Virus record (IMG/VR): IMGVR_UViG_3300047388_000166 | Location: 1-28,856 of that record | Length of the DNA stretch: 28,856 bases | Source of the DNA: a virus | Direction: 5' to 3' (one strand) | Shown: piece by piece, positions 14,711 to 28,856 of the stretch | Numbering within the stretch: the stretch's first letter is position 1 | Layout: each line of letters opens with the position of its first letter | Notes under the pieces: generated by a model | Told to the model about the DNA's origin: nothing | The model's database searches: none | The model's input: only the letters and a program-made list of their open reading frames with translations | Program-made: the position numbers and the translations under genes

Positions 14711-14916
14711 AACTGCTGGAGTACAAACGCGCTTCCCGTGCTTTCCGTAAGCAGGCGGTGAAAGGGGTCGGATTCATCGCGTTCGACGAACACGGGAATC
14801 TCGAACCATCGCCTGAATGGGATCGGATGGAGAAGGCGTGGGAGCGGTTGGTCCTGAATCGTCCATGGTTGGAACGTTTGCTCTCTCAGCCAAAGGTGTA
14901 TCAGTGGATCAGCTGA
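14701..14916 (+). CDS. Unknown 71-residue protein between terL and portal
   Basis: The product begins MVLKLLEYKRASRAFRKQAV and is basic at first, then has EWDRMEKAWERLVLNRPW. It starts within the last codons of terL (GAGGG upstream) and overlaps the portal start by 13 bases. It could be a small packaging or assembly factor; no family was recognised. Confidence 0.6.
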   Translation: MVLKLLEYKRASRAFRKQAVKGVGFIAFDEHGNLEPSPEWDRMEKAWERLVLNRPWLERLLSQPKVYQWIS

Positions 14917-17246
14917 GTCCAGAAGCTCTACAGGCACTTTCCTCTACAGACCCCAAGAGTCTGGACCTTGCGTTGCTCGATCCACTGCGTAAGCAGCTGG
15001 AGGCGATGGGTTCGCCGGATCAGGTGCCACCTGAGCAACAGGCTCAATTGGAGGCGATGAAGTCCGCCGTCGATATGATGGTGACGGAACAGATCACGCG
15101 TCTGAACGCGGTGGCGATGGACCTGACTGACGACTGGCAAGCCGCTGTCAAGGCGAAGAAGCCGGTTGAGGATCGATGGATAGACGACGAACGTCAGGTC
15201 AACGGTAAGGCACGTGTACGCGATTCCAAGGCGTACCCGGGCGATACCAACAAGAGTTCTCCGGCTGAGCCGATCGTGGTCCACGCGACGCGTTCCAGGA
15301 CCCTTATGTGCTGGGGCAGGCTATGCGACATGATGCTGCCAGCCAACGACTTCCCGATGCGGGTGGACGCGGCGGACGATCCTGACCCAACAGAGTTCCC
15401 GTTGTTGCAGGAAGCGATACAGAAGGCCATGAAGGCCGCACAAGCATCTGCTCAACAGGGACAGCAGGCGCCTCCGGTCGATCAAAAGTCCGTCTTGCAG
15501 GAGATGTCTGAGGCCGCTGCCAACAAGATGCAGCAGCGTGTCTTTCAGATGCTTCGCGATGCAAAGTTCCAGACGCATGCACGCAAAGTCTTGTACGACT
15601 GTGCGCGTTTGGGTACGGGAATCATGAAGGGACCCTTCCCCGAGCTGAAACAGACACGCAAGTTTGGTGCGGGTGGTGAGTTTGATATCAAGGAAACGCC
15701 TAAGGCTGGTCTGACGTGGGTCAATCCCTGGTTGTTCTACTACGACATGGCGTCTAGCTTGGAAAGAAGCTCTGCCACGTACGAAGTCCAGATCGTCAGC
15801 TCACGGGAGCTTGCAGACTACAAACGGTATCCGCGCACGCTGATTAGCGTGGTGGATGAGCTGTTGCGGGACAAGGATCCGAAGCTGAAAGGGGAGTTCC
15901 GCTCAGCGGTCGAACGCCGCAACAACATGACGGACCAGAGTGAGCCGTTGGACGGTGTGTATGCCGTGCTTGAAACGCACAAGGTGATGACGCCGGAGAA
16001 GCTGGAAGAAATCGGGATCAAGTGGGATCACGAAGACATGCCGGTGCTCCACCTATGGAGCTGCGATGGCAAGTGCATCAAGTTCAAGCTGACGCCGCTG
16101 GAACGAGATTTTCGTCTCGACTACTACGATTGCACGATCATGCCGGCCGACGACACGATTTTCGGCTATGGATATCCGTATCTCGCACGTGCGGCTCAAC
16201 GTTTCGCAGATGGTGCGATCAATGCAACGCTCGCCAACGCGGCGGCCTCTGTAGCGCCGATGCTGCTGGTCTCTCAGGGTAAGGTTCATCCGAACCGGGA
16301 ACGCTGGACAGCGGCCGGTCTAAACATCTTTTCCGTGGAGAACCAAGAGGGTCCGATTGAGAACTGTTTCGCCTCGGTCATGGTGCAATCCAACGTCGAA
16401 CAGAACCTTGAGCTGCTGAAAGTCGCTCAGGACATGATGGACCAGGACACGTTGTTCGGTCAGATCATGCAAGGCAATGCGAACGGCGAGGAAATGCCGG
16501 CTTCTGGCATGGTGTTGGCGGCAAATATCCAAGGTGTGTTCCAGAAAGCCATTGCAGGGTATGCGGATGACAACTGGTTCCAACCGTTGTGTGAGCGATT
16601 GATCTGGTGGGCCAAGATGTACCCGGTCAACGGACAGGACCAAGTAGATCCTGAGCTTGCGGGCGACATGCAACCCAAGGCGATTGCGGCGACTCAGCTC
16701 GTCAGCAAGGACCTTGCGCTCCAGCACACCAGCGTGCTGATTTCGATGATGCAGAACCCGATGTTTGCCGGATTTGGCGATGCATACGAGGCGTGGAAAG
16801 CGTTTACGTCCAATATCGATGGCCTCCCGAACAGGGATGCGATCATCCTGGATCGAGATACTGCACTCGCCAATCAGGCAAAGATTCAGCAGGCCGCACA
16901 GAAGGGTGATCCGAATCAGGCTGCGAAACTTGCGAGTGACGAGAAGATTGCAGCCGCGAAGATTGCGAGCGAGGAAAAACAAGCACAAGCAACGCAACAG
17001 GTCGAGGTTCTTCGCCTGCAAGTGCAGATGAAGGTCGCCGAACTGACCTTGCAGGCACGCCTTGTCGAGCTACAGACGCAGAAGGATGTGGATATTACGG
17101 CCGTTTCTGCGCAGATCCAGAAGGCGAGCATGGATGACGATACGAGACGAATGACGGCCGTTCTTGAGCAGCGTGTCACTTCCTCTATCGAGATGGCAAA
17201 GCTCAATGCCCCGGTGGGCGAACGACCCTACTCGGCGAAAGACTGA
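14904..17246 (+). CDS. Portal protein (podovirus type)
   Basis: The product is about 780 residues, close to the large P22-type portals. Recognisable blocks are ARDSKAYPGD-like linkers near residue 80, YDMASSLERSSATYEVQ, GYGYPYLARAAQRFADGAIN, NATLANAAASVAPMLLV, and LAANIQGVFQKAIAG. The last 150 residues are an alanine/lysine/glutamine coiled coil (KLASDEKIAAAKIASEEKQA), like the P22 portal barrel that reaches into the head. Portals are dodecameric DNA channels at one capsid vertex. GTG 14904 with AAAGG upstream is chosen; a longer upstream start would overlap the previous gene heavily. Confidence 0.85.
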   Translation: MDQLSPEALQALSSTDPKSLDLALLDPLRKQLEAMGSPDQVPPEQQAQLEAMKSAVDMMVTEQITRLNAVAMDLTDDWQAAVKAKKPVEDRWIDDERQVNGKARVRDSKAYPGDTNKSSPAEPIVVHATRSRTLMCWGRLCDMMLPANDFPMRVDAADDPDPTEFPLLQEAIQKAMKAAQASAQQGQQAPPVDQKSVLQEMSEAAANKMQQRVFQMLRDAKFQTHARKVLYDCARLGTGIMKGPFPELKQTRKFGAGGEFDIKETPKAGLTWVNPWLFYYDMASSLERSSATYEVQIVSSRELADYKRYPRTLISVVDELLRDKDPKLKGEFRSAVERRNNMTDQSEPLDGVYAVLETHKVMTPEKLEEIGIKWDHEDMPVLHLWSCDGKCIKFKLTPLERDFRLDYYDCTIMPADDTIFGYGYPYLARAAQRFADGAINATLANAAASVAPMLLVSQGKVHPNRERWTAAGLNIFSVENQEGPIENCFASVMVQSNVEQNLELLKVAQDMMDQDTLFGQIMQGNANGEEMPASGMVLAANIQGVFQKAIAGYADDNWFQPLCERLIWWAKMYPVNGQDQVDPELAGDMQPKAIAATQLVSKDLALQHTSVLISMMQNPMFAGFGDAYEAWKAFTSNIDGLPNRDAIILDRDTALANQAKIQQAAQKGDPNQAAKLASDEKIAAAKIASEEKQAQATQQVEVLRLQVQMKVAELTLQARLVELQTQKDVDITAVSAQIQKASMDDDTRRMTAVLEQRVTSSIEMAKLNAPVGERPYSAKD

Positions 17247-17464
17247 TGACAGACGAAGAGTTGTTGAAATTGATCGAAAAGGATGGCCGAACATGGATTT
17301 CGCTTGTGCAGTGGGCGACGGCTAGGCGATTTTTGATTGATGACGCTCTGCGTACTCAGGGTGCCTCGGAAAGAGCATCTGACTTTCTTCGCGGTCGCGC
17401 CAGTCTGTGCACCATCTTGCTTGATTTCCACAAAAAGTTGAATGAGGAGCCTTCCCATGAGTGA
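17246..17464 (+). CDS. Unknown 72-residue protein
   Basis: The product begins MTDEELLKLIEKDGRTWISL and carries RTQGASERASDFLRGRASLC. It starts on a TGATG overlap with the portal and its end overlaps the scaffold start. A helical character is likely. No family was recognised; its place suggests a head-assembly accessory. Confidence 0.6.
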   Translation: MTDEELLKLIEKDGRTWISLVQWATARRFLIDDALRTQGASERASDFLRGRASLCTILLDFHKKLNEEPSHE

Positions 17465-18548
17465 CGAATTTGCCGCCGCCGTACAGAGCGAAGAGTACAA
17501 GGCGTGGAAGGACGACAAACCAGCTCAGGAACCTGTTGTAGAGGCGAAACCTGAGCCTGCTGCGCCCGTTGTAGAGACGCGTGCGCGCAATGCGGATGGC
17601 ACCTTTGCCCCTGCCACTGAAAAGCCTGCTGAGCGCGTAGAGCCGCTGCCGTTTGATGGATTCGATAAGCTCGATCCTTCTGTACAGGCGCAGTTTCGTC
17701 GCTTGACAGGTGAGCGTGATGATTTTAAGGTTCGATATACCCGCCAACTCGGTCACACCCGACAGTTGGCCCGTACTGCCAGCCCAGCCAATAGGCCCGC
17801 TGGTAATGAGTTGGCGAATGCTCGCCGTGATGCCTCGGCACTTGCCCCCGGCGCACAGCGCGATGCGATACAAAGCCAACTCGACAAGTGGGAAGCCCAT
17901 AAGGCGGCCTACCCAGATGAAGCGAACGCCATTGACCAGCGTATTGCCGCATTTCGTGACGATCTAGCGTCCGGTATTAATCCCCTCGCGCAAGAAGTCC
18001 AGCACCTCCGTTCTGTTGTTGAAGAACTGCAAGGCGGTTATCAGTCTGTGCAGCAGGAGCGTGCTGAGCGGTATAAACAGGAATCCTTCGAAACCTTCGG
18101 GAAACTCGCAGGCGACAATTGGCGTCAGATCGCAGGATTAGAAGACGAGAACGGAAAGCAGATTCCGACGCAGATCCCAGGCCCTAACGGGCAGATGGTC
18201 CGTAATCCGGATTACAAGTGGCATCCTGAGTTTGTAGCGTGGGTCGATGGACATGACCCGGATATTGCCCAACATTACTGGCAGACGCTCTATAACCCAT
18301 CGCCACGCGTATCGGCTCAAGTTGTCGCTGAATTCAACCGCGAGCGTTTTGGACTCGAAGACGCAGGCACACAGGACGGTAAAGCCACAGCCGATCCCGT
18401 CGCAGCCCGCCGCGCGGAATCCTTGCGAGACATACAACCCGGTGGCGCACGAGCACGTACGTCGGCTCCTGCGACATGGGCACCCACTGGCGATGCATAT
18501 GCCGATGCGGTGAGAAGTGAGGATTACAAAAAGTGGCGTGAGGCTTGA
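17457..18548 (+). CDS. Putative scaffolding protein with matching end motifs
   Basis: The 363-residue product lies between portal and major capsid genes, where scaffolds sit. It is hydrophilic, with a proline/glutamate-rich linker (KPEPAAPVVETRAR), an RNADGTFAP segment common in such proteins, and a long coiled-coil part (AQEVQHLRSVVEELQGGYQS). The first 18 residues include AAAVQSEEYKAW and the last 18 include ADAVRSEDYKKW, so both ends bear the same motif. The start at 17457 has GAGGAG upstream. It would guide capsid assembly and then leave the head. Confidence 0.75.
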   Translation: MSDEFAAAVQSEEYKAWKDDKPAQEPVVEAKPEPAAPVVETRARNADGTFAPATEKPAERVEPLPFDGFDKLDPSVQAQFRRLTGERDDFKVRYTRQLGHTRQLARTASPANRPAGNELANARRDASALAPGAQRDAIQSQLDKWEAHKAAYPDEANAIDQRIAAFRDDLASGINPLAQEVQHLRSVVEELQGGYQSVQQERAERYKQESFETFGKLAGDNWRQIAGLEDENGKQIPTQIPGPNGQMVRNPDYKWHPEFVAWVDGHDPDIAQHYWQTLYNPSPRVSAQVVAEFNRERFGLEDAGTQDGKATADPVAARRAESLRDIQPGGARARTSAPATWAPTGDAYADAVRSEDYKKWREA

Positions 18549-18558
18549 GGATTAGCTC

Positions 18559-19581
18559 ATGGCAATGAACACCTATGCGGCACAGAACGTGCCGAATGGC
18601 TCTGCGAATCCGCAGTACTTCATCAACAAGGACCTGCTCGACTCGGCCGATACCTTCCAGGTCATCGACAAGTTTGCGGTCGAACAAACGCTGCCGATGA
18701 ACAGCAATGCGTTTCTCGCCTCCCGTCGCTATCTGACGGGTGCGCCGGACGCAACGCCTACACCGGAAGGTACGAACAAAGTCTCTCGCACGCAGATTTA
18801 CGAGGACTTCACCACCCAGATGTTTCGCTACATGGAGCAGTACCAGCTTTCGCAGCAGGAACTGAAACTGACCCCGTTCCCGGCCCTCAAGGGTGCGCGT
18901 ACGGAAATGACGAAGCTGGTCATCCTCGATCGCGAGCGCGTTCGTTGGAATGCCCTGCTGACCATCGCCAACAAGATTTACAACTCGTCGGCAGTTACCA
19001 CGATTCCGGGTGTCAATGGCCCGATCACCCCGGGTCGTATCCAGACCATCGTTCGATCGATCCTGAAAGCAAAAGGATCATACGTTTCGGCCGGTCAGGG
19101 CGGTGTGAACAAGGAAGGCACGAATCCGACAGAACAGTCGCTCGTGTTCCTCGGTCACACAGACTTGCAGCCGGACGTGCGTGCGCTCCCTGGTTTCCAG
19201 CCGGCGATTTCTCTGCCGGATGGCAAGCCGAAGCACAAGACGCACTTTGGCAACTGGCTGAATGTCGAGTTCTACCTGTCGCAGGAAGCGCCGATTCTGA
19301 CCGGAGGTGGCGCTGCCTCCACGACCTTGCTGAACACCGCAGGTGTCACGGACGTGTACCAAAACATCATCATGGCGAAAAACACCATCGCTACGGTGAA
19401 GTTGGGTGGCGCGGGTGAAGAAGGTGGCGGCAATCTCGACACGAAGCTCCTGGATCAGCCGGACAAGTACGATCCAGGCAACCAGTGGGCAAACCTCGTG
19501 TGCACGTGGTGGGATGCCGCTTACATCATCACCAATGACTGGGCGTGGTTGTATTACACCGGCGCGACCCTCAACCCGTAA
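18559..19581 (+). CDS. Major capsid protein, N4-gp56 type
   Basis: The 340-residue product has the N4-gp56 family pattern: a start rich in A/N (MAMNTYAAQNVPNGSANPQY), MFRYMEQYQLSQQEL, LILDRERVRWN-like VILDRERVRWNALLTIANK, a LVFLGHTDLQPDVRALPGF segment, and a C-terminal ANLVCTWWDAAYIITNDWAW. It forms the icosahedral shell. GAGGA lies eight bases before the start. It follows the scaffold by ten bases. Confidence 0.85.
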   Translation: MAMNTYAAQNVPNGSANPQYFINKDLLDSADTFQVIDKFAVEQTLPMNSNAFLASRRYLTGAPDATPTPEGTNKVSRTQIYEDFTTQMFRYMEQYQLSQQELKLTPFPALKGARTEMTKLVILDRERVRWNALLTIANKIYNSSAVTTIPGVNGPITPGRIQTIVRSILKAKGSYVSAGQGGVNKEGTNPTEQSLVFLGHTDLQPDVRALPGFQPAISLPDGKPKHKTHFGNWLNVEFYLSQEAPILTGGGAASTTLLNTAGVTDVYQNIIMAKNTIATVKLGGAGEEGGGNLDTKLLDQPDKYDPGNQWANLVCTWWDAAYIITNDWAWLYYTGATLNP

Positions 19582-19593
19582 TCGGAGACTGCA

Positions 19594-20073
19594 ATGGCAA
19601 CTTACTACGCTCAGAACACGTACAAGCAGAATCCGATTCGGTCTACGCTGTACGAGGCTTTGTATCCGCCCACCGAGCATCCGGGAATCCTGTACACCCA
19701 GTATTTCAATTGCTCGATCCCTGTGGGCTTCACGACCGCCGACATCATGAAGTTGTCGGATTTCGCCATCGCGGCGCCGGTTACGGTTCCGCAGAACGCT
19801 TCTGTTCGCTTCACGCGCGCGGTTCTTCGTGCGGCCGGTGATGTGGGTGGTTCGGTCACGGTGAACTTCGGGTTTGTGTCGGCGGCCACTGCGTTTGGTT
19901 CCGCGCTCACGACCCTCCAGTCTGCCGGTACGCTCGATGTTCCGATTGCCACGGTCATGGCGGCAACGGGACTGATTGCCAACGACACCTTGCAGCTGGT
20001 GGCTGCGGCTGGTACGTCAACCACGGTTCGTGTGGTGGATGGCTTTATCCAGTACTACATCATCGCGCCGTAA
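19594..20073 (+). CDS. Probable capsid decoration/structural protein
   Basis: The 159-residue product begins MATYYAQNTYKQNPIRSTLY and has a beta-rich body (PQNASVRFTRAVLRAAG, GSVTVNFGFVSAATAFGSAL, TTVRVVDGFIQYYIIAP). It lies right after the major capsid gene and before an intrinsic terminator, so the two are probably made at similar high levels. That makes a capsid surface or stabilising protein likely. Confidence 0.65.
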   Translation: MATYYAQNTYKQNPIRSTLYEALYPPTEHPGILYTQYFNCSIPVGFTTADIMKLSDFAIAAPVTVPQNASVRFTRAVLRAAGDVGGSVTVNFGFVSAATAFGSALTTLQSAGTLDVPIATVMAATGLIANDTLQLVAAAGTSTTVRVVDGFIQYYIIAP

Positions 20074-20081
20074 GGCTCTTA

Positions 20082-20104
20082 AGGGGGCTTCGGCCCCCTC
20101 TTTT
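20082..20104 (+). terminator. Intrinsic terminator after the capsid genes
   Basis: AGGGGGC (20082-20088) pairs perfectly with GCCCCCT (20093-20099) around a UUCG tetraloop, followed by CTTTT. It is a strong rho-independent terminator. It lies between the capsid/decoration genes and the tail genes of the same direction. Confidence 0.85.
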
Positions 20105-20118
20105 CCGAGGATTTCCCC

Positions 20119-20904
20119 ATGGCTGGTTTGCGATCGATTGGCACCCTCCTGATTACCAAGTTCGAGGACGCGACACGTAAGGAAATGGACAAGGCCTACG
20201 AGCAGAAATTTCAGATCGATGCCCCTCCGTCCCTCACGGATGCCGAGCTTCGTCATGAGTTGGTAAAGGCGTACAACGTCGTCGCTCCACAGGAGCGTGA
20301 GGCGCCCGCTACGCCCATCTCGCATGGACAGGCACCGAAGGGCATGAAGATGCCTCAGCTCAACGCTACGGGTCGCTGGGACGGTCGTATGCGTCGTGTA
20401 ACCTTCCTTCCACAGGATGGGAGCAAGAAACAGGAAACTCAGCCGGTGGGGTGGGACGGGATTATCTGGGTCATCAAGTTGGGTGAGCCGGTCGACATGC
20501 CGTGGCCTTTCTGGGAAGCGGCGCGTAACACCATTCTCAAGGACGACGGTTCGGAAGAGGTCAGTAAGTGGCATCACACGCCGGATGGTCGGCTTGAGAA
20601 GCACATCACGCCGTCATACCGGAAGACGGTGAATTACATCGATCACGGTGACGTACCTGGTACGGAAGACCTTCCGATCGGTTATGCGGACTTCTTCCAT
20701 CGCGAGGCGGTCAAGACACAGTGCTTCAAGACCTTCAATCGCGCTGCGCTGGTGATGGTGTTCAACAAGCTGCACGAACCGCAGCCAATGTGGTATTTCC
20801 GTGACATGCGCGATGACGATATCCGCATGCGCATCGCGATGACGTTGGGTACCGATGTCGAATCGGTGTTGCAGGATACGATGTACGAGGAAGCGAGCGC
20901 GTAA
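20119..20904 (+). CDS. Unknown virion-region protein, 261 residues
   Basis: The product begins MAGLRSIGTLLITKFEDATR and includes PKGMKMPQLNATGRWDGRMR, GWDGIIWVIKLGEPVDMPWP and a C-terminal DDDIRMRIAMTLGTDVESVL. It is the first gene after the terminator, with GAGGA upstream, and ends in a TAATG overlap with the adaptor gene. Genes here in N4-gp56-type phages are conserved but, as far as I know, of undefined role; a head-completion function is possible. Confidence 0.6.
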   Translation: MAGLRSIGTLLITKFEDATRKEMDKAYEQKFQIDAPPSLTDAELRHELVKAYNVVAPQEREAPATPISHGQAPKGMKMPQLNATGRWDGRMRRVTFLPQDGSKKQETQPVGWDGIIWVIKLGEPVDMPWPFWEAARNTILKDDGSEEVSKWHHTPDGRLEKHITPSYRKTVNYIDHGDVPGTEDLPIGYADFFHREAVKTQCFKTFNRAALVMVFNKLHEPQPMWYFRDMRDDDIRMRIAMTLGTDVESVLQDTMYEEASA

Positions 20905-21653
20905 TGGCCTCGATGACCTATCTGCAACTGGCACAGTTCGCAGGTCGGTATCTGCGATCCAGCAATTTGCAGGGCGGAGCCTATCCAACGGCCATTCCGG
21001 TTCCTGCCAATCAGGACCAGATGTCCTACGACATTGTGGATGCTATCCCGAGAGCGTGGGAGTGGGTGCAGAACGAGCACCCGTCGTGGAACTTCATGCG
21101 CAAGCAGGGAATCCTTCCGCTCGTCTCCGGAACACGTGTCTACACGCTGACCGCCATCCAGGCGCAGATATCGGACTACTACGGTTACATCCCATTTTGG
21201 GCACTCGCCGTCGAACCGTATTTCCTACTGTACGACGCGGGCGCTTCTGCGCCTCAGGACTATATCTATCCGTTCGTGGAGTATCAGAACTGGAGAGGCT
21301 GGTGGGATCGCGTACCCAGACCCTCTGCGAATCAGCCTAATCGCTTGACGGAACGTCCTGACAAGTCGCTGGAAGTCGATCCAACACCCACACTGGCTCC
21401 GAGCGGAGGCGCATGGACGCTCCGGCTTGACTATCGGATCAAAAATCAGGTGCTTTCTGCCTCTGGAGACGTTCCTATCCTTCCGCCTGAGTTCCACGAA
21501 ATGATCGCATGGGTCGCTATTCGGATGCTGACGGAAACTCGGATGAATTCAGGACCTTTGCTTGCAGCTGCACAGAATGAAATTCAGAAATATATGGACC
21601 GTCTGAAATCGCAATACCTCCCGCAGCTACAGATCGACTTGGTATATGCCTGA
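20904..21653 (+). CDS. Head-tail adaptor, gp6-like
   Basis: The 249-residue product has the layout of phage adaptor (gp6-like/P22 gp4-related) proteins: an N-terminal helix, VDAIPRAWEWVQNEHPSWNF, then FVEYQNWRGWWDRVPR, SLEVDPTPTLAPSG, and ILPPEFHEMIAWVAIRMLTE. These proteins sit under the portal and start the short tail. It overlaps the previous stop and the next gene. Confidence 0.8.
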   Translation: MASMTYLQLAQFAGRYLRSSNLQGGAYPTAIPVPANQDQMSYDIVDAIPRAWEWVQNEHPSWNFMRKQGILPLVSGTRVYTLTAIQAQISDYYGYIPFWALAVEPYFLLYDAGASAPQDYIYPFVEYQNWRGWWDRVPRPSANQPNRLTERPDKSLEVDPTPTLAPSGGAWTLRLDYRIKNQVLSASGDVPILPPEFHEMIAWVAIRMLTETRMNSGPLLAAAQNEIQKYMDRLKSQYLPQLQIDLVYA

Positions 21654-24600
21654 GACCCTCATCGCCTGCGAAGGTGGACTCGACCAACGGTCTGCGTCGA
21701 TCAACGCGGCTAAGGGTACGCTGTCGAACTGTTTCAACTTCGAGAAGGATCAGGGTCCTGGTTACTCGCGTCGTTTGGGCTGGGTGAGATACGACGGACG
21801 CATCACAGGTCCTGAGATTGAGGACGGTGTGGTTGCGCTCTACAACACGGCCAATCTCACAGGGGTTTTCACTTACGGAGAGCAAGTCCGGTTCGCATCG
21901 GCTGGACTTCCGACGCTGAATGCGATCTACATCGGTAATTCGGTGTCGTTCGGTTCTTATCCGGCAGCCCTCCTGTTCGCATATCCGATCCAGACGTTCA
22001 CGAACTGGAACGACATCACATCCTATCCAACAGCAACCTCAATCACCGGATTAAGTTCAGGGGCTGTGCTGACATCGCTGCTGTTTCAGCCGACGCTGAT
22101 GAACGACAGCACGATTTCTATTCCCATGTACGACAATTTGAAGCGCGCCACGCAGCGTGCACACTACTTGTCGGTTGGGGCCGTTCCTGGAAGAAATGAA
22201 TCGCCTGTCGATGCAGAATTCACGTTCGGAAACAAGTCATACGCTATCCATGATTGCGTGACCTACACCTTCACGAATGGAGCTAGCACGATCGGAATTG
22301 TTCCTGTGGAAGGCAATGTTCTGGTCGACAAAAACACGGGTAAATCCATCGGTACGATTCTTGCTATTCAGACAACGCTCGGTGATTGGGTTGCTGGAAC
22401 CATGCAAGGTCAGATTGTTGTTTACGACTATGTGCTGGGACAGGCCTTTCCATCAACCGGCGATCAATTCGATCTGTACTCGGCGGATGGACTGACGAAG
22501 CTCGTCAATAACGTCGGTATGTTCGGCAGCAATCTCACGGCGAATGCGAATAACACCCGTGCGTTGCTTTATTCGACGTACGAGCAATACGTAAAGGACT
22601 ACACCTTCGGCTCACTGTACGGCATAAACAACATCATTAACCCGCCGCATAATGTGCCAACGCCTCCGACATGGAGTAGGCCACGGCTGACGCGTGAGCT
22701 GCCTTATACGTCGGTTGGACTGCCTGCTGGCAGCACATCGTTCGGACCTACCGGATCACTGGATTACTCGATCTACGAGTATTCACGCCAAGGACTGACG
22801 ACACAGATCAACCAATTGTCTCCTATCGCTTCACCGGAGAAGTTTCCGACTATAGCAACGGACCTTAGCAACGGTGCGGTGTGGGTCAACAAGAACAACA
22901 TCCTTGTGCAGGATGGTGCGGTCGCCAATTTCCCTCCGATTGCCGCCAACATCGGCTATCAGATTGGAGCACTGGCAGGTTCAGCGTTTGACTTCTCGTC
23001 CATTCCTGATAATTCCGTCATTCTCGGCGTCGTCTTCCGCATGCGTGCTCAGAGCAGCATTGCTGGAAACTACACGGACGGTGAAATCAGGTTGATGTCG
23101 TCGGCATTTCCGAACGGTCTTGGCTCGCAGAACAAGGCGAACGGATTCTTTCCGCCCGTTGGCTTGACCGATCGTAGCTACGGCAGCGCGACGGACACAT
23201 GGGGTGAGCAGATCACGACCGCGATGCTGAAAGACCCGTCTTTCGGTGTGTCGGTGCGTTGGAAGAGAGTCGGAACCAATCCAGCAACGACGATCAGTGT
23301 CGATGCGTATGCGATGACGGTTTACTACGTTCCTCCAACACGATCGGTTTATGTGCGTGATCCAACAATCGTGGCGGCTCCGGCACAAGATGTGCCGATC
23401 AACATCATCCACTACTGCATCAACTCCGGAGACTTTCCGACGCAAACAGCAGTCGGCGTTCTGACGGTCTCCATCGGTAATGTGGAATACCAAGGTACGG
23501 CAGCCGGAAAGATCAGACGTTTGAAGGCAGGCGACGAGATTCGTACAGCTGCTTCTACACCGGCAACCAATGCAGCAAACGGAACCTTGTTGGGCTATGT
23601 GACGGCCGAGGACTATCCCACATCCTTCCCGCCAGGAGCTGGGCTTGATTCCGTCAACTCACGTTATGAAGTGATTGACGCCAACTTCTGGGATACCGCA
23701 GAAGGAAGGGCGGCCTACATCGCGAATGGTGTTGAATTTGCCACAATGTTTGATGGCATCTTTCATGTCCGTATCCGTACAGGACGGCCAACGGCTAACG
23801 ACAATCCGAGACATGTCGCGGCGCATTTGAACTATCTCCACCTTGGATTCCAGTCAGGGTCTGTCGTCAACACGGCCACAGGGAAGCCGCTTACGGTTCT
23901 GGGAACGCCAGGTAATGGATCGAGTGTGCAGAACTTTGGTGAGCCGATCAACGGCATGCTGACGCTCAATGGGCAGACACTTGGTGTGTTCACCGATCGG
24001 TCTACGCGTGGGTTGCAAGGAACTGCACCTGCATCGAGTACAACCAATGTTGGTTACACGCCGATCATGATTTCCCCGGCGATCAACTGTATCGAATACA
24101 CGTTGGTCAATCTCGTCGGAGAGGCGGTATGGACCAGCTACAGAGGCGTGGAGACGCTTCGCTCTGTCAATGCATACGGAGACTTTGAAACGCTCCCTCT
24201 GAGTGCTGCGGCCCAGAAATGGTTGCAGGGAAGGATTCAGGTCGACTTGAGTATAGGCAGCAAGCCGTCGAGAGCGGTGTATGCGATTGGCGTACGCAAC
24301 AAGCGGCAATATCGCTTGTTCTTCGCTGACGCCTACGTGTACACGTTGACCCTGTTCGATGCAGGCGACTATCCGGTTAGCACGGTTCAACGCTTGGCAC
24401 GTCCCAACGCAACAACGGTTCCGTCTGGTGTGAATGACGAACCTTGCAATGCAGGCGTTATCCGTCACGTCTACAACGGAACACGATCTGATGGAAAGGA
24501 AATTATTCTTGCTTCGTTCGAGAATCAGAATGCAGCCGTCGTACCTGCGCAAAGTCTTCCTACACAGCTCGGTCCGTATTTCCCTTACGCGGTGAGATTG

Positions 24601-25050
24601 GATTGCGGATATTCGGATGACGTACAACCCTGTATGCCAGCCTTCATCGAGTTCAACGCGATCTATGCCGGTTATCCGACGCAGTCTCAACAGTTCGGAA
24701 CGATCACGATCTTCATGAATGCGTACGGTGGGTCTCAAGCGACGATCTATACGAAGATGAACTTTGATGGTCCTATTTTCGACACTGCACAAGTCAATCA
24801 AGTAGGCGTTCTGACGGCGGCTGATTTTCAGGTCAGGAAACAGCTGGTGACATTGCCATTGATTGAGAACAGAGCCTACATTCCGGTCCCACAACGCTAC
24901 ATGGTGGTCGACGCACCCGGCGAAGGCCGCATGTTGAAGCTTCGGATTGACGCCACCCAGGCGCCTGCAAACTTTGCCCCATTGCTGGTTCCTCTGCGTA
25001 TCACTCACCTGTCGATATCCGGTATCGGACAGGATCTAGACAGGACGTGA
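21646..25050 (+). CDS. Large tail hub/nozzle-type structural protein
   Basis: The 1134-residue product begins MPETLIACEGGLDQRSASIN, then FNFEKDQGPGYSRRLGWVRY. This opening, listing fixed-parameter-like sequence after the adaptor gene, fits the large tail tube/nozzle or P22 gp10-like stabilisation proteins, which are mainly beta. The rest is rich in N, T, G and Y and has no coiled coil. It ends LSISGIGQDLDRT. The start overlaps the adaptor stop. The exact family is not certain, and it could also hold fibre-binding parts. Confidence 0.65.
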   Translation: MPETLIACEGGLDQRSASINAAKGTLSNCFNFEKDQGPGYSRRLGWVRYDGRITGPEIEDGVVALYNTANLTGVFTYGEQVRFASAGLPTLNAIYIGNSVSFGSYPAALLFAYPIQTFTNWNDITSYPTATSITGLSSGAVLTSLLFQPTLMNDSTISIPMYDNLKRATQRAHYLSVGAVPGRNESPVDAEFTFGNKSYAIHDCVTYTFTNGASTIGIVPVEGNVLVDKNTGKSIGTILAIQTTLGDWVAGTMQGQIVVYDYVLGQAFPSTGDQFDLYSADGLTKLVNNVGMFGSNLTANANNTRALLYSTYEQYVKDYTFGSLYGINNIINPPHNVPTPPTWSRPRLTRELPYTSVGLPAGSTSFGPTGSLDYSIYEYSRQGLTTQINQLSPIASPEKFPTIATDLSNGAVWVNKNNILVQDGAVANFPPIAANIGYQIGALAGSAFDFSSIPDNSVILGVVFRMRAQSSIAGNYTDGEIRLMSSAFPNGLGSQNKANGFFPPVGLTDRSYGSATDTWGEQITTAMLKDPSFGVSVRWKRVGTNPATTISVDAYAMTVYYVPPTRSVYVRDPTIVAAPAQDVPINIIHYCINSGDFPTQTAVGVLTVSIGNVEYQGTAAGKIRRLKAGDEIRTAASTPATNAANGTLLGYVTAEDYPTSFPPGAGLDSVNSRYEVIDANFWDTAEGRAAYIANGVEFATMFDGIFHVRIRTGRPTANDNPRHVAAHLNYLHLGFQSGSVVNTATGKPLTVLGTPGNGSSVQNFGEPINGMLTLNGQTLGVFTDRSTRGLQGTAPASSTTNVGYTPIMISPAINCIEYTLVNLVGEAVWTSYRGVETLRSVNAYGDFETLPLSAAAQKWLQGRIQVDLSIGSKPSRAVYAIGVRNKRQYRLFFADAYVYTLTLFDAGDYPVSTVQRLARPNATTVPSGVNDEPCNAGVIRHVYNGTRSDGKEIILASFENQNAAVVPAQSLPTQLGPYFPYAVRLDCGYSDDVQPCMPAFIEFNAIYAGYPTQSQQFGTITIFMNAYGGSQATIYTKMNFDGPIFDTAQVNQVGVLTAADFQVRKQLVTLPLIENRAYIPVPQRYMVVDAPGEGRMLKLRIDATQAPANFAPLLVPLRITHLSISGIGQDLDRT

Positions 25051-25051
25051 C

Positions 25052-25822
25052 ATGCCCGCACCGATCACACCACCGCTGGCTCAATTCCAACCCAACGCAC
25101 AGCCGTATGGGAACCTCACGACGGGACCTGGAGGCGTTGCTCTCACGGGGGTTAACCCGCAAGAGCTGACGAGCTATCAACTTGGTCAGCTACAGCGGAG
25201 TGATAACCCGCTGGTACAGACAGCGCAGAACAATGCGAGGAACTTCGCCGCTGCGCGTGGAGCGGGATTGTCAGGCAGCAACTATGCGCAGGCCGCAACG
25301 GGCGCCGCGTTTGATGCCATGACGCCTATTGCGACCGCTGATGCGGGTCAATACGCAGACGTTCGCGATCGAAATCAGACGGCGATGAATCAGCAGAACA
25401 TCGAGCGAATGGGCAATGAAACGTCGCTCGGTGTCGCCAACATCGGAGCTGGAGCCTCCATGTACAACAGCGACAATGCGCGAGAAGAGGCTCGATACGA
25501 GTTCAATCGCGGTCAAGAAAATCGCCTACAGAATCGTCAGTGGCAGGTCGCCGATCAGAACACTGCTGCGAGAGCTTCTCAGCGCTCTCAGTTGTTTAGT
25601 CAAGCGACTCAAGCGATATTCAGTGATCCTGCCTACTGGCGTGATCCGCAGGCGGCTATGGGTCTGCTGAATGAGTATGGCAGCAACATGGACAATCTGA
25701 TGCAGCAGTTGTTTCCTGAGTACTTCTCTACGGATCAGAACGGTAATCCGGTTGCTCCTCCTGCGGGTCAAGCACCGCCTCCGTCGAATGTCTACACGCC
25801 ACCTTCACACGGGACACGCTGA
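25052..25822 (+). CDS. Probable internal/ejection protein with N-terminal PPLAQF
   Basis: The 256-residue product is hydrophilic, with many N, Q, A and R. It has PPLAQF at residues 7-12, a helical middle (ARNFAAARGAGLSGSNYAQA, REEARYEFNRGQENRLQNRQ) and a C-terminal DPQAAMGLLNEYGSNMDNLM, ending in a proline-rich tail. The place after the tail hub and the composition resemble T7 gp14-like or P22 ejection proteins that leave the virion to form a channel. AGGA lies six bases before the start. Confidence 0.65.
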   Translation: MPAPITPPLAQFQPNAQPYGNLTTGPGGVALTGVNPQELTSYQLGQLQRSDNPLVQTAQNNARNFAAARGAGLSGSNYAQAATGAAFDAMTPIATADAGQYADVRDRNQTAMNQQNIERMGNETSLGVANIGAGASMYNSDNAREEARYEFNRGQENRLQNRQWQVADQNTAARASQRSQLFSQATQAIFSDPAYWRDPQAAMGLLNEYGSNMDNLMQQLFPEYFSTDQNGNPVAPPAGQAPPPSNVYTPPSHGTR

Positions 25823-26283
25823 TGAAAGGCAATATTCGTAATCGTTTGCGTGTGAAGCATCGCGCTCCTTCGTGTCATTGGATCGCGATTGTTGCCACGG
25901 TCGTTGGTGGAATTGCTGCCAGTGCTTCACAGCAGTCTGCTACGAACAAACAGAACGTGGTCAAGTACGAAGATCAACGTGACCTGTCGAATCTCGCGCT
26001 TGAGCAGCAGAACTGGCTCTCTCAGCAGCAGCGCAAGTGGAATCTTGAGGATTACCAGCGCGGTCAGAACTACAAAGAGAACGCGATCGGTGGTTTTCGT
26101 GATGCCGCGTTGCCGAATGCCGTGAAAGGCAGTAACGGACAATGGGGAACACCGCCTGCTCCGACCACGGTGGATACATCAGGGCTTGCGCCGACACAGG
26201 ACAATGGACAGCCGGCGATCTTCGATCCTCGCACGGGCGCGCCGATCAACAACAAAGCTCCCCCTCTCGCACAATTCGGATAA
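25822..26283 (+). CDS. Probable internal virion protein with C-terminal PPLAQF
   Basis: The 153-residue product has a basic N-terminus, a hydrophobic span near residues 20-36 (WIAIVATVVGGIAASASQQ), and then a helical part LSNLALEQQNWLSQQQRKWN, a pattern of T7 gp14-like inner-virion membrane-active proteins. It ends APPLAQFG (motif at 26260-26277). It starts on a TGATG overlap. It may enter the host outer membrane during ejection; that is family-based inference. Confidence 0.6.
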   Translation: MKGNIRNRLRVKHRAPSCHWIAIVATVVGGIAASASQQSATNKQNVVKYEDQRDLSNLALEQQNWLSQQQRKWNLEDYQRGQNYKENAIGGFRDAALPNAVKGSNGQWGTPPAPTTVDTSGLAPTQDNGQPAIFDPRTGAPINNKAPPLAQFG

Positions 26284-26286
26284 GCC

Positions 26287-26793
26287 ATGGACCAGCAACC
26301 TGATGGTAACGATCCTTCGCAGATGATCGGATATATCGATCCGAATGCGACGCCGAAAGTGAAGACATACCTGACCGCTGCGAAAGCGATCGTGGTCAAT
26401 CCGCAGACGGCTGACATCCTGAAAAAGATGCTGACGCAAGGTCAGGATCCAGCGATGACGCTGGCCACTTTCATCGGCAAGACGATTGATACGCTGGAGA
26501 CCAAGCTAGGACCGCTGGAGCAGCAGGAACACGATCAGGTCGCCGTACACATTGCGGGATGGTTGGTCAGCTCATTGCAGCACATGGGTATGCCAGGCCT
26601 CGACGATCAAGGCGCAAGACACGACCTTCTAGGGCGCATCCTACAGGCCCTGGATCAGCTCACGGGTGGCGATCAGCCGCAGGACCAGGGAGCACCCCAA
26701 CAGCCTCCTGACGGCGCAGTGCCTAGCGCACCACAAGGATCGCCACAAGACCCATCACAAGCGCCTCCGCTGGCGCAATTCGGAGGTCCGTGA
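26287..26793 (+). CDS. Probable ejection-region protein with C-terminal PPLAQF
   Basis: The 168-residue product has a helical core (ILKKMLTQGQDPAMTLATFI, DTLETKLGPLEQQEHDQVAV, HIAGWLVSSLQHMG) and a glutamine/proline-rich tail from about residue 128. It ends APPLAQFGGP (motif at 26764-26781). The linker and terminal motif suggest a folded domain with a flexible docking tail. The family is unknown. Confidence 0.65.
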   Translation: MDQQPDGNDPSQMIGYIDPNATPKVKTYLTAAKAIVVNPQTADILKKMLTQGQDPAMTLATFIGKTIDTLETKLGPLEQQEHDQVAVHIAGWLVSSLQHMGMPGLDDQGARHDLLGRILQALDQLTGGDQPQDQGAPQQPPDGAVPSAPQGSPQDPSQAPPLAQFGGP

Positions 26794-27707
26794 TGGGCGG
26801 GGTAGATTGGGGCCAAGCACTAGCCTCCGGTATCGCTTCCGGTGCAGGCGCCGTTGCGACCAATATCGAGGACGACAAAAAGCAACAGGAGTGGATTACT
26901 CGCTTCCAGCAAATGCAGGCAATGGAGGCAAAGACGGCGAACCAGAAAGCGTTGTTTATGGATTCGCTCAAGTCGCCTGAGACCCGCAAGACCAACATGA
27001 CGGATGATTCCGGGAAACCGATCGTTCGAACGGAAGAGTGGGTACACGGTCCAAGCGGTGAGAATGCGCACTGGAACAAAGTGGGCGAGACGCCGGATAT
27101 AAACTTCGAGAAACTGAACGAGACGGAGCGAAGGAATGCTGATCTAAATCAGAATGCGCAAGATCGCATTGCGATGATGCAAAGCCTTGGTGAGGCCAAG
27201 AATGCAACGGCGCTTGCCAGGATTGAGGCCGCTAATGCGCGTGGTGAGAGTGACAAGGGTAAGTACGAACGCGCTGGGGTGATGCAGTTCATTCCTGTTC
27301 CGGACAAACCCGGAGAAACCATGCCGGTTATATCGGACGGTAGGGGTGGATTCAAACCCTACCTGGACGAGAATGGAAAGCCACAATCGGGTCGTAAGGC
27401 CGCTCTCAGCGCGACGGAAATCAAGGCTAAGAATGCCGCCGACGAAGAGGCGAAGGCTGCGTTGCAGGAAAAGACGGATGCCATGCAGCCACCGGGTGCG
27501 CTAATGCGTACGTGGAACAACATGACGGGCAACAGTGCGGCCAACACACCGCAGGCAGATGCAGGTCCGCCACAAAGCCAGCCTCCGTTGTCACAGTTCT
27601 CGCCCCCTGTAAAAGCGTCTGCGCACGGTGCTGTTGTTCGCACGGGAACGGATAGTCAGGGTCGAAAAGTCGCTCAGTACGCTGACGGAACGATCGCACC
27701 GATATGA
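26793..27707 (+). CDS. Probable internal/ejection protein with PPLSQF in its tail
   Basis: The product is about 304 residues with an alanine/glycine-rich amphipathic start (WGQALASGIASGAGAVATNI), helical charged segments (NERRNADLNQNAQ-like), and a small beta part (MQFIPVPDKPGETMPVISDG). The proline-rich tail has PPLSQF at residues 264-269 (27582-27599), followed by a final beta stretch. ATG 26793 with GGAGG six bases upstream is chosen, on a TGATG overlap. It could form or line an ejection channel. Confidence 0.6.
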   Translation: MGGVDWGQALASGIASGAGAVATNIEDDKKQQEWITRFQQMQAMEAKTANQKALFMDSLKSPETRKTNMTDDSGKPIVRTEEWVHGPSGENAHWNKVGETPDINFEKLNETERRNADLNQNAQDRIAMMQSLGEAKNATALARIEAANARGESDKGKYERAGVMQFIPVPDKPGETMPVISDGRGGFKPYLDENGKPQSGRKAALSATEIKAKNAADEEAKAALQEKTDAMQPPGALMRTWNNMTGNSAANTPQADAGPPQSQPPLSQFSPPVKASAHGAVVRTGTDSQGRKVAQYADGTIAPI

Positions 27708-27883
27708 ACGACGAACTTTTCTGGGCGATGACCGCTGCCTCTATCTTCGGGATCAGTCATCACCCGAAAAACTATTCGGACGGTTTTCAGCCGATGTCAC
27801 CTGAGCAGGCTGGAAAGCTGGCGGATGACCTTCTGGTTGAGTTCCGTAAGCGTGTGATCTCAGGCTATTTCAATGATGGCTGA
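27704..27883 (+). CDS. Unknown 59-residue protein between ejection genes
   Basis: A frame from ATG 27704 (ATGA overlap) to TGA 27881-27883 encodes MNDELFWAMTAASIFGISHH, then a helical EQAGKLADDLLVEFRKRVIS. It overlaps the following large gene by 11 bases. The overlap at both ends supports translation. It lacks the PL[AS]QF motif of its neighbours and might be a chaperone or assembly factor for them. Confidence 0.55.
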   Translation: MNDELFWAMTAASIFGISHHPKNYSDGFQPMSPEQAGKLADDLLVEFRKRVISGYFNDG

Positions 27884-28856
27884 TCCGAACGGGATCAAAT
27901 GGGACGATCAGCCATCCGCTGATGGGATCCAATGGGATAATCCGGCGAGCTTCAACAGCGTGCAGGCCGGTGGTGCTTCCTCAGCCCCCCTTTCACAGTT
28001 TGCCCCTCAACCGCCCTCTAATCCGTTCGCTGATTCGCAGGAGACTGAGAATGCTGGAGCTGAACAAGTTCCTGCTGTACTGGCGGGTGCAGGAACGGCG
28101 CTGGAACGTGTAGGTGCTAGAACAGGTCGAGGACTCCTGCAAGCCGCTGCGGGCTTTGCTGGCGCCTCCAATCCCTATGGACTCGGCCAGGACCTGCAAG
28201 ATGAGGCGTTCAAAGCCTCCGACGCCCTGAAACAGTGGGAACAGGGACTCCAGTCGCCTACGGATACGGCAGGTCATGTAGGTGATGTGGGCGGGTCTCT
28301 GATCGGCGGATTTGCCACATTGGGTGCTGGAGAGGCTGGGGCACAGGGTCAGGACGTCATCAATTCCGGAGGATCGGTCCAGCAGGCGCAGGAGACGGCC
28401 GCCTTGGCCGGCGCAACGTCTGCCGCAGGGTTAGGTATAGGTCAGCTCGGGAAAGCGCTTCCTGCACGTCTGCTGCTGCAAGGAGCGGCATCCGGAGCGT
28501 CGGGTGAGGCTGCTCGGGAGATTGGCAACCAAATCCTGCCAGATTCCATGCATCGCGATTTCAGCATGGCGGATCTGGCGTTCAATGTCGGCGCGGGTGC
28601 AGCAGGTGGTTTTATCCCTGCGCATGTGGACGAGTCCGCACTTTCTGGCCTCAAAGATCCGGAGGCTCAGGGTTCAGCGACAGCCGACCTTATTCTGAAT
28701 GAGGCAAAAGCTTCGGTACCCAGAGAGGCAGGTCATGAAACTACGCCACCTGAAACTGGTGTGCTCGATGGAGAACTGGCCGCTCCCAAGGTGGATACAG
28801 CCACTCCAGCCGCCGACTTTCAAGCCGCTCCTGCTGAGCATATTCCCACGCCACAA
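27873..28856 (+). CDS. Large internal virion/ejection protein, N-terminal part (cut by window edge)
   Basis: The frame starts at ATG 27873 (or 27876) and is open to the last base, so only about 328 residues are visible. It begins with two copies of a GI[KQ]WD[DN]xP-like motif (about residues 7-24), then APLSQF (27984-28001). An alanine/glycine-rich stretch follows, with several amphipathic segments (RTGRGLLQAAAGFAGASNPY, VGGSLIGGFATLGAGEAGAQ), as in membrane-interacting ejection proteins. In related phages such genes are thousands of bases long and may carry a lytic transglycosylase, but nothing catalytic is visible here. Confidence 0.7.
   Translation, partial: MMADPNGIKWDDQPSADGIQWDNPASFNSVQAGGASSAPLSQFAPQPPSNPFADSQETENAGAEQVPAVLAGAGTALERVGARTGRGLLQAAAGFAGASNPYGLGQDLQDEAFKASDALKQWEQGLQSPTDTAGHVGDVGGSLIGGFATLGAGEAGAQGQDVINSGGSVQQAQETAALAGATSAAGLGIGQLGKALPARLLLQGAASGASGEAAREIGNQILPDSMHRDFSMADLAFNVGAGAAGGFIPAHVDESALSGLKDPEAQGSATADLILNEAKASVPREAGHETTPPETGVLDGELAAPKVDTATPAADFQAAPAEHIPTPQ

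Follow-up and report, generated by a model that had tools for sequence, protein, structure and literature searches.

How podophages select the proteins that are loaded into the head is poorly understood, and work on P22 points to the scaffold: ejection proteins have been proposed to dock at the inner end of its helix bundle, and its N-loop seems to assist the assembly of gp16 (PMC12005531). The internal proteins of T4 carry a short N-terminal targeting sequence (ten residues in IPIII) having affinity for the core (PMC9026906), the first 30 residues of P1 DarB target this protein to the head (PMC9024508), and the portal of N4 and of DEV is encircled by one ejection protein (PMC12633501; PMC10925440). 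In a non-viral shell, that of the encapsulins, cargo docks inside an HK97-fold structure through short conserved end motifs, mostly C-terminal and in some cases N-terminal (PMC8346489). No general head-loading signal for podophage cargo is named in the literature that we covered, and a literature search, outside whose reach most subscription literature lay, retrieved no paper on the motif PLxQF. Here we describe this motif in five of the six consecutive proteins encoded behind the tail hub of the virus record IMGVR_UViG_3300047388_000166, analyzed from position 1 to 28,856 (this whole stretch is called the window); the record is apparently a genome fragment, because its last gene overruns the contig end.

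The five copies all lie in frame, in plausible genes located between 25052 and 28856, exactly where the initial annotation had placed them, and no further P[LM].QF was found in the open frames of at least 90 codons on both strands of the window. They occupy N-terminal, extreme C-terminal and internal places, mostly in proline/glycine-rich ends (Table 1, from which the numbering of proteins 1 to 5 is also taken). Leucine is encoded by CTG, CTC, CTG, TTG and CTT, proline by CCG (three times), CCT and CCC, glutamine by CAA (three times) and CAG (twice), and phenylalanine by TTC (four times) and TTT, so that the earlier statement that the codons differ at almost every position was somewhat strong in its wording. 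Its conclusion stands: since the sequences flanking the copies have only 29% of their nucleotides in common, the motif is not a DNA repeat, and the differing codons and flanks rule out both a repeat and gene conversion as its origin.

An unbiased scan, in which a pattern had to fix four of its five positions and could use hydrophobic and aromatic classes, was compared with 200 locally shuffled sets; PL.QF ranked first for the window with a score of 11.4. Five of the six proteins contain it versus 0.014 expected, and the best score reached by any of the 200 shuffles was 6.9. Real gene sets are a stricter background than shuffles, and no score higher than 6.6 was reached when 270 groups of six adjacent, non-paralogous genes were taken from other phage sequences; the background frequency of the motif in phage proteins, on which the initial annotation had made its suggestion depend, is thus far too low to yield five matches. 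The structural genes of the window give no comparable motif signal. With a loose form of the pattern, three matches were obtained in about 30,000 amino acids of the structural block versus 43 in about 14,900 amino acids of the post-hub (cargo) block, a few of these 43 being due to chance.

Eight further virus contigs (L002-L006, L012, L014 and L034) were recognized as relatives by the hub over its length or by the cargo proteins; L002-L004 are near-identical, and about seven distinct genomes are known in all. Clade A comprises the window, L002-L004, L005 and L006, the hubs being 60-66% identical to that of the window. Within this clade, P[LM]xQF is found in the same five proteins and at the same places in three further distinct relatives beside the window, and the motif was the top pattern of the unbiased scan, with 0 of 200 shuffles reaching it, in L004, L005 and L006 as it was in the window. 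In a comparison of these four distinct genomes anchored on the motif, P, Q and F were the same in all 90 pairwise comparisons, whereas the 12 residues on either side were 25% identical. Across the relatives, the slot of the first copy reads PPLSQF, PPMAQF, MPMSQF, PPISQF and PPLSQF, that of the second VPLSQF, PPMNQF and TPLAQF, that of the third PPMGQF, APMSQF and APMDQF, that of the fourth RPMSQF, APMGQF and APMGQF, and that of the fifth APLAQF, APMSQF and IPLAQF. Past the point where the window ends, the block of the relatives includes a protein of 116-149 amino acids with SVMQQF or SVMNQF and a last protein of 172-176 amino acids with SPLAQF (L003, L004) or SPMGQF (L006). Leucine is present in all five copies of the window versus methionine in all five copies of L005 (permutation p = 0.016 for homogeneity within genomes), a modest hint that the copies change in concert even inside clade A. 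The initial annotation had also pointed to homologues that might keep the proteins and lose the motif; the close relatives that have the proteins keep it, the limit of this check being the distant phage StenR_269, in which a weakly homologous gene has no motif.

The sister clade (L012, L034 and L014; support 100/100; hubs of L012 and L014 43-44% identical to that of the window in the best segments) carries GTLxQ with F, M, V or L as the next residue, or else GTLGRW. The C-terminus of protein 2 reads SGTLPQFAG, PGTLRQFQGAA or PGTLPQVAT versus APPLAQFG in the window; the tail of protein 3 has GTLPQM, GTLPQM and GTMPQM, in addition to an N-terminal MATL[QP]QF (MATLPSL in L014); in protein 5, VGTLGRW or IGTLGRW stands at the place of the clade A APLAQF; and the last protein of the block has GGTLGQF or GGTLPQF at the place of SPLAQF/SPMGQF. 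Four proteins have thus been rewritten alike to the GTLxQ type (GTLGRW in protein 5) at equivalent slots. The unbiased scan found TL.QF unaided in L012 (0 of 200 shuffles) and in L034 (3 of 200, and 0 of 200 once its second protein was included), and GTh.Q in L014 (2 of 200). As far as these sequences tell, the same rewriting in four unrelated proteins is hard to explain by separate drift, and it is what a shared reader would predict. The core kept in unconserved tails, the same slots in relatives and the concerted change in the sister clade strongly support the earlier claim of selection for a short linear motif, and on this comparative evidence we hold firmly that PLxQF is a real motif of this kind under common selection. 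One more contig, L174, found by its coat protein, shares its metagenome of origin with L012 and may be another piece of that genome.

With a probability of roughly 0.55, we propose that the motif is a procapsid docking tag by which probable ejection proteins are recruited as cargo, their location in the virion and the partner being presumed. According to this proposal, otherwise unrelated virion proteins would have in common the consensus [PT]-[LMI]-x-Q-[F or other large hydrophobic], which each of them would expose in a flexible proline/glycine-rich end or linker, and one partner with a peptide groove would collect all the tagged proteins during procapsid assembly, before DNA entry. The tag might work at either end or internally, because only the peptide would be read, and partner and tags would have changed together between the clades, therefore giving PLxQF in one and GTLxQF in the other. 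We infer both the existence of a single shared partner and its identity, which would most likely be the scaffold core, the portal and the coat being less likely candidates. That the scaffold reads the tag is a guess of ours, and a doubtful one; the portal comes second because one ejection protein surrounds it in N4 and DEV, and the coat third because of the manner in which encapsulin cargo docks inside its shell. The scaffold-like protein of the window bears, at each end, a near-identical element some 16 residues long (N-terminal DEFAAAVQSEEYKAWKD, C-terminal DAYADAVRSEDYKKWRE), as does that of L002, and this doubled element may be a duplicated binding helix. A more far-reaching version, which we advance tentatively and at clearly less than even odds, is that of a position-independent address code, in which one procapsid reader would load at least five injected proteins through the same five-residue tag, reader and tags would have co-evolved into PLxQF and GTLxQF groups, and loading would be set by the tag alone. 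The recurrence of the tag in nearly every probable cargo-block protein, together with its concerted rewriting in the sister clade, makes the question of head loading testable with peptides, and the tag could allow cargo proteins of uncultured phages to be identified from sequence alone.

Some points weigh against the docking proposal. The number of distinct genomes is small, and the order of the genes is the sole basis on which the post-hub proteins are labeled as ejection or cargo proteins; those tested had no match in Pfam, and tblastn of the 25052 and 26287 proteins against 50,697 phage records gave no match. Nor is the tag on every protein. The 59-amino-acid protein, which the initial annotation had singled out as the only one of these neighbors lacking the motif, carries no tag in any of the six genomes examined, and the tag is likewise missing from a block protein of 600-650 amino acids in those genomes that encode this protein separately. 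Protein 1 of the sister clade has retained PPISQF or PPLSQF in two genomes out of three (L014 has GTLGQL close by), and in the same clade the GTLSQF of protein 4 stands at a non-equivalent, probably helical place; it was not counted and may be due to chance.

The comparison with the systems mentioned above gives likenesses and differences. The head/tail gene order is comparable to that of P22, whose gp7, gp16 and gp20 are loaded in a scaffold-dependent manner, a docking site on the scaffold, close to the portal, having been proposed; however, the accessible part of the report mentions no linear motif shared by these three proteins (PMC12005531). As with the T4 capsid-targeting sequence, a short peptide that is the same or similar in several unrelated proteins would send internal proteins into the assembling head; the T4 proteins are later injected, and an internal status is presumed for those described here. 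The T4 signal, however, is N-terminal, of another sequence and cleaved off, whereas the tag described here occurs at both ends as well as inside proteins and differs in a concerted way from one lineage to the other. The copies of the window do not share the T4-type N-terminal location; a scan of part of the genes, covering head genes, revealed no protease, and the C-terminal copies make removal of the tag by a protease implausible. Under the docking proposal the tag works like a capsid-targeting sequence but, because it does not keep to the N-terminal place, it is not classed as a T4-type one. The N-terminus of P1 DarB was considered as a demonstrated head tag with the same motif and rejected, its sequence having no such motif. 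Like the tag, the encapsulin cargo motif is short, conserved and carried by a flexible tail that is not part of the folded domain, which holds for the 168-amino-acid protein by the predicted local distance difference test (pLDDT) and for the other proteins by sequence; yet its consensus, SDGSLGIGSLKRS, is not matched by PLxQF/GTLxQF when compared by eye (PMC8346489), and its receptor is a non-viral shell, whereas here a phage has at least five tagged proteins and a presumed receptor.

The main rival, which we consider unlikely, is that the tags stick to one another, or to a groove that one cargo protein offers, the ejection proteins forming a core or a connected channel without any scaffold, portal or coat receptor. 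Such homotypic stickers would explain the concerted change with no outside receptor, and the tagged proteins are indeed all neighbors in one gene block; however, a proline-containing peptide of five residues seems poorly suited to self-association, and the conserved glutamine and phenylalanine in an exposed tail look more like groove-bound residues. We find it improbable that the tag is used after ejection, binding the host envelope, a chaperone or a replication/transcription factor and helping to pull or assemble the injected proteins. The host probably receives the tagged proteins, and a change of host between the clades could also give a concerted shift, but the tag would then have to serve almost all cargo proteins, among them the small ones in which it stands at the extreme C-terminus, and searches with hub and 168-amino-acid protein profiles found no bacterial genome with relatives.

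The T4 internal proteins lose their targeting peptide to the prohead protease (PMC9026906), and by analogy the motif might be the cleavage site of an assembly protease. In the 153-amino-acid protein, however, a single residue follows the copy and other copies are internal, so that cleavage would do little; an end-processing signal is unlikely because the copies are N-terminal, C-terminal and internal, and, with the head genes scanned giving no protease, we judge this explanation very improbable. Finally, most copies stand in proline-rich stretches, as would be expected of a compositional accident of proline/glutamine-rich tails, and a dispersed DNA repeat might also be invoked; but neither the composition-keeping shuffles nor the real gene sets reach the score, codons and flanks differ, and the core is conserved where the flanks are not, by which both ideas are refuted and left with a negligible probability.

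The docking tag, if this is what the motif is, does not extend to podophages in general. The same scan applied to the ejection modules of N4, HMO-2011 and vB_Pun_Y3 gave no significant shared motif, and in StenR_269 it gave only an unrelated borderline pattern, K.IED (7 of 200 shuffles), with no PLxQF-type motif in the post-hub region. The idea of a general tag of podophage ejection modules was therefore rejected; judging from the genomes compared, the tag is lineage-specific and no universal feature of ejection proteins, since the first post-hub gene of StenR_269 is weakly homologous and has no such motif. A separate motif, NPFDQFD, often in tandem, was observed in at least 79 viral contigs (L049-L128), in one protein that is usually large and nearly always within its first 50 residues. 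It fits P-hydrophobic-x-Q-F, as does the motif of the window, but it is restricted to one protein per contig in 79 of 80 contigs versus five proteins per set here. Genes neighboring it are not enriched for the motif (5 matches versus 3.8 expected), so that these phages do not support a second case of a shared set, and, as far as tested, the multi-protein set is special to the group of the window because NPFDQFD is not shared with neighbors.

On the plus strand of the window, a terminase gene (13244) precedes those of the portal and the scaffold-like protein, followed by the coat (18559), small head/neck genes, the hub and six genes reaching the contig end (Table 1). These six lie directly behind the tail hub within the structural gene block, as is the case for podophage ejection proteins, and because of this place their products are probably ejection or cargo proteins, present in the virion and injected. 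Apart from one very weak match, they have none in PHROG. The fourth of them starts at a GTG at 26790 and not, as first annotated, at 26793, its motif lying in the proline-rich tail as described. A similar arrangement is found in StenR_269, the fifth place being taken by a putative virion RNA polymerase; in a profile comparison, the 256-amino-acid protein weakly matched the first post-hub gene of this phage (expectation value, E, 6e-4; probability 29%), the alignment including the C-terminal FSDPxxWRDP..FPEY part.

Table 1. Features of the window, with the five copies of the motif and the genes discussed in the text.
Feature	Position	Strand	Remarks
Portal protein	14817..17246	+	Matches HMO-2011-like and similar phages; presumed second candidate docking partner
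Scaffold-like protein	17457..18548	+	Between portal and coat; P22 precedent (PMC12005531); presumed first candidate docking partner
Tail hub	21646..25050	+	Weak similarity to phage stabilization (P22 gp10-type) and tip proteins; marks start of cargo block
Cargo protein 1	25052..25822	+	256 amino acids, predicted mostly helical; motif near N-terminus
Motif copy 1, PPLAQF	25070..25087	+	Residues 7-12 of 256
Cargo protein 2	25822..26283	+	153 amino acids; motif at extreme C-terminus
Motif copy 2, PPLAQF	26260..26277	+	Residues 147-152 of 153, then G and stop
Cargo protein 3	26287..26793	+	168 amino acids; helical core and unstructured tail; motif in tail
Motif copy 3, PPLAQF	26764..26781	+	Residues 160-165 of 168; unstructured tail
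Cargo protein 4	26790..27707	+	305 amino acids, GTG start; motif in proline-rich C-terminal region
Motif copy 4, PPLSQF	27582..27599	+	Residues 265-270 of 305
59-amino-acid protein without motif	27704..27883	+	Kept in all six genomes examined; possible accessory or adaptor
Cargo protein 5	27873..28856	+	Start of large protein (713-1382 amino acids in relatives); truncated by contig end
Tandem GIKWDD / GIQWDN	27891..27941	+	N-terminus of cargo protein 5
Motif copy 5, APLSQF	27984..28001	+	Residues 38-43 of last, truncated protein

The AlphaFold2 model of the 168-amino-acid protein has a helical core (residues 10-127, pLDDT mostly 80-92) and an unstructured tail (129-168, pLDDT about 40) that holds the tag. 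Compared with the PDB and with viral models, it had no significant match, the best PDB entries being Bcl-2-like bundles with E of about 0.3 and above and template modeling scores of about 0.4 or less; the model of the 256-amino-acid protein was poor (confidence 47). The 59-amino-acid protein has a stretch of the type [SN/Q]I[LFV]G[IM]xHHP (...GI[SA]HHP or similar) that is kept in all six genomes, and no annotated counterpart of its gene stands at the equivalent place in StenR_269. GIxWD[DNT] or [DG][IV]DWSQF, or a close variant of either, occurs twice at the start of the large cargo protein, both kinds being present in both clades (Table 1; L004:16027-16180, L006:16064-16200 and L034:11604-11700); neither the DWSQF nor the GIxWDD tandem had a usable match in annotated phages. 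At this place L004 has a single protein of 1382 amino acids (16027-20175) versus two adjoining or overlapping genes in L005, L006, L012 and L034 (16064-18334 and 18331-20292 in L006), which perhaps reflects a fusion or a split of the large cargo protein.

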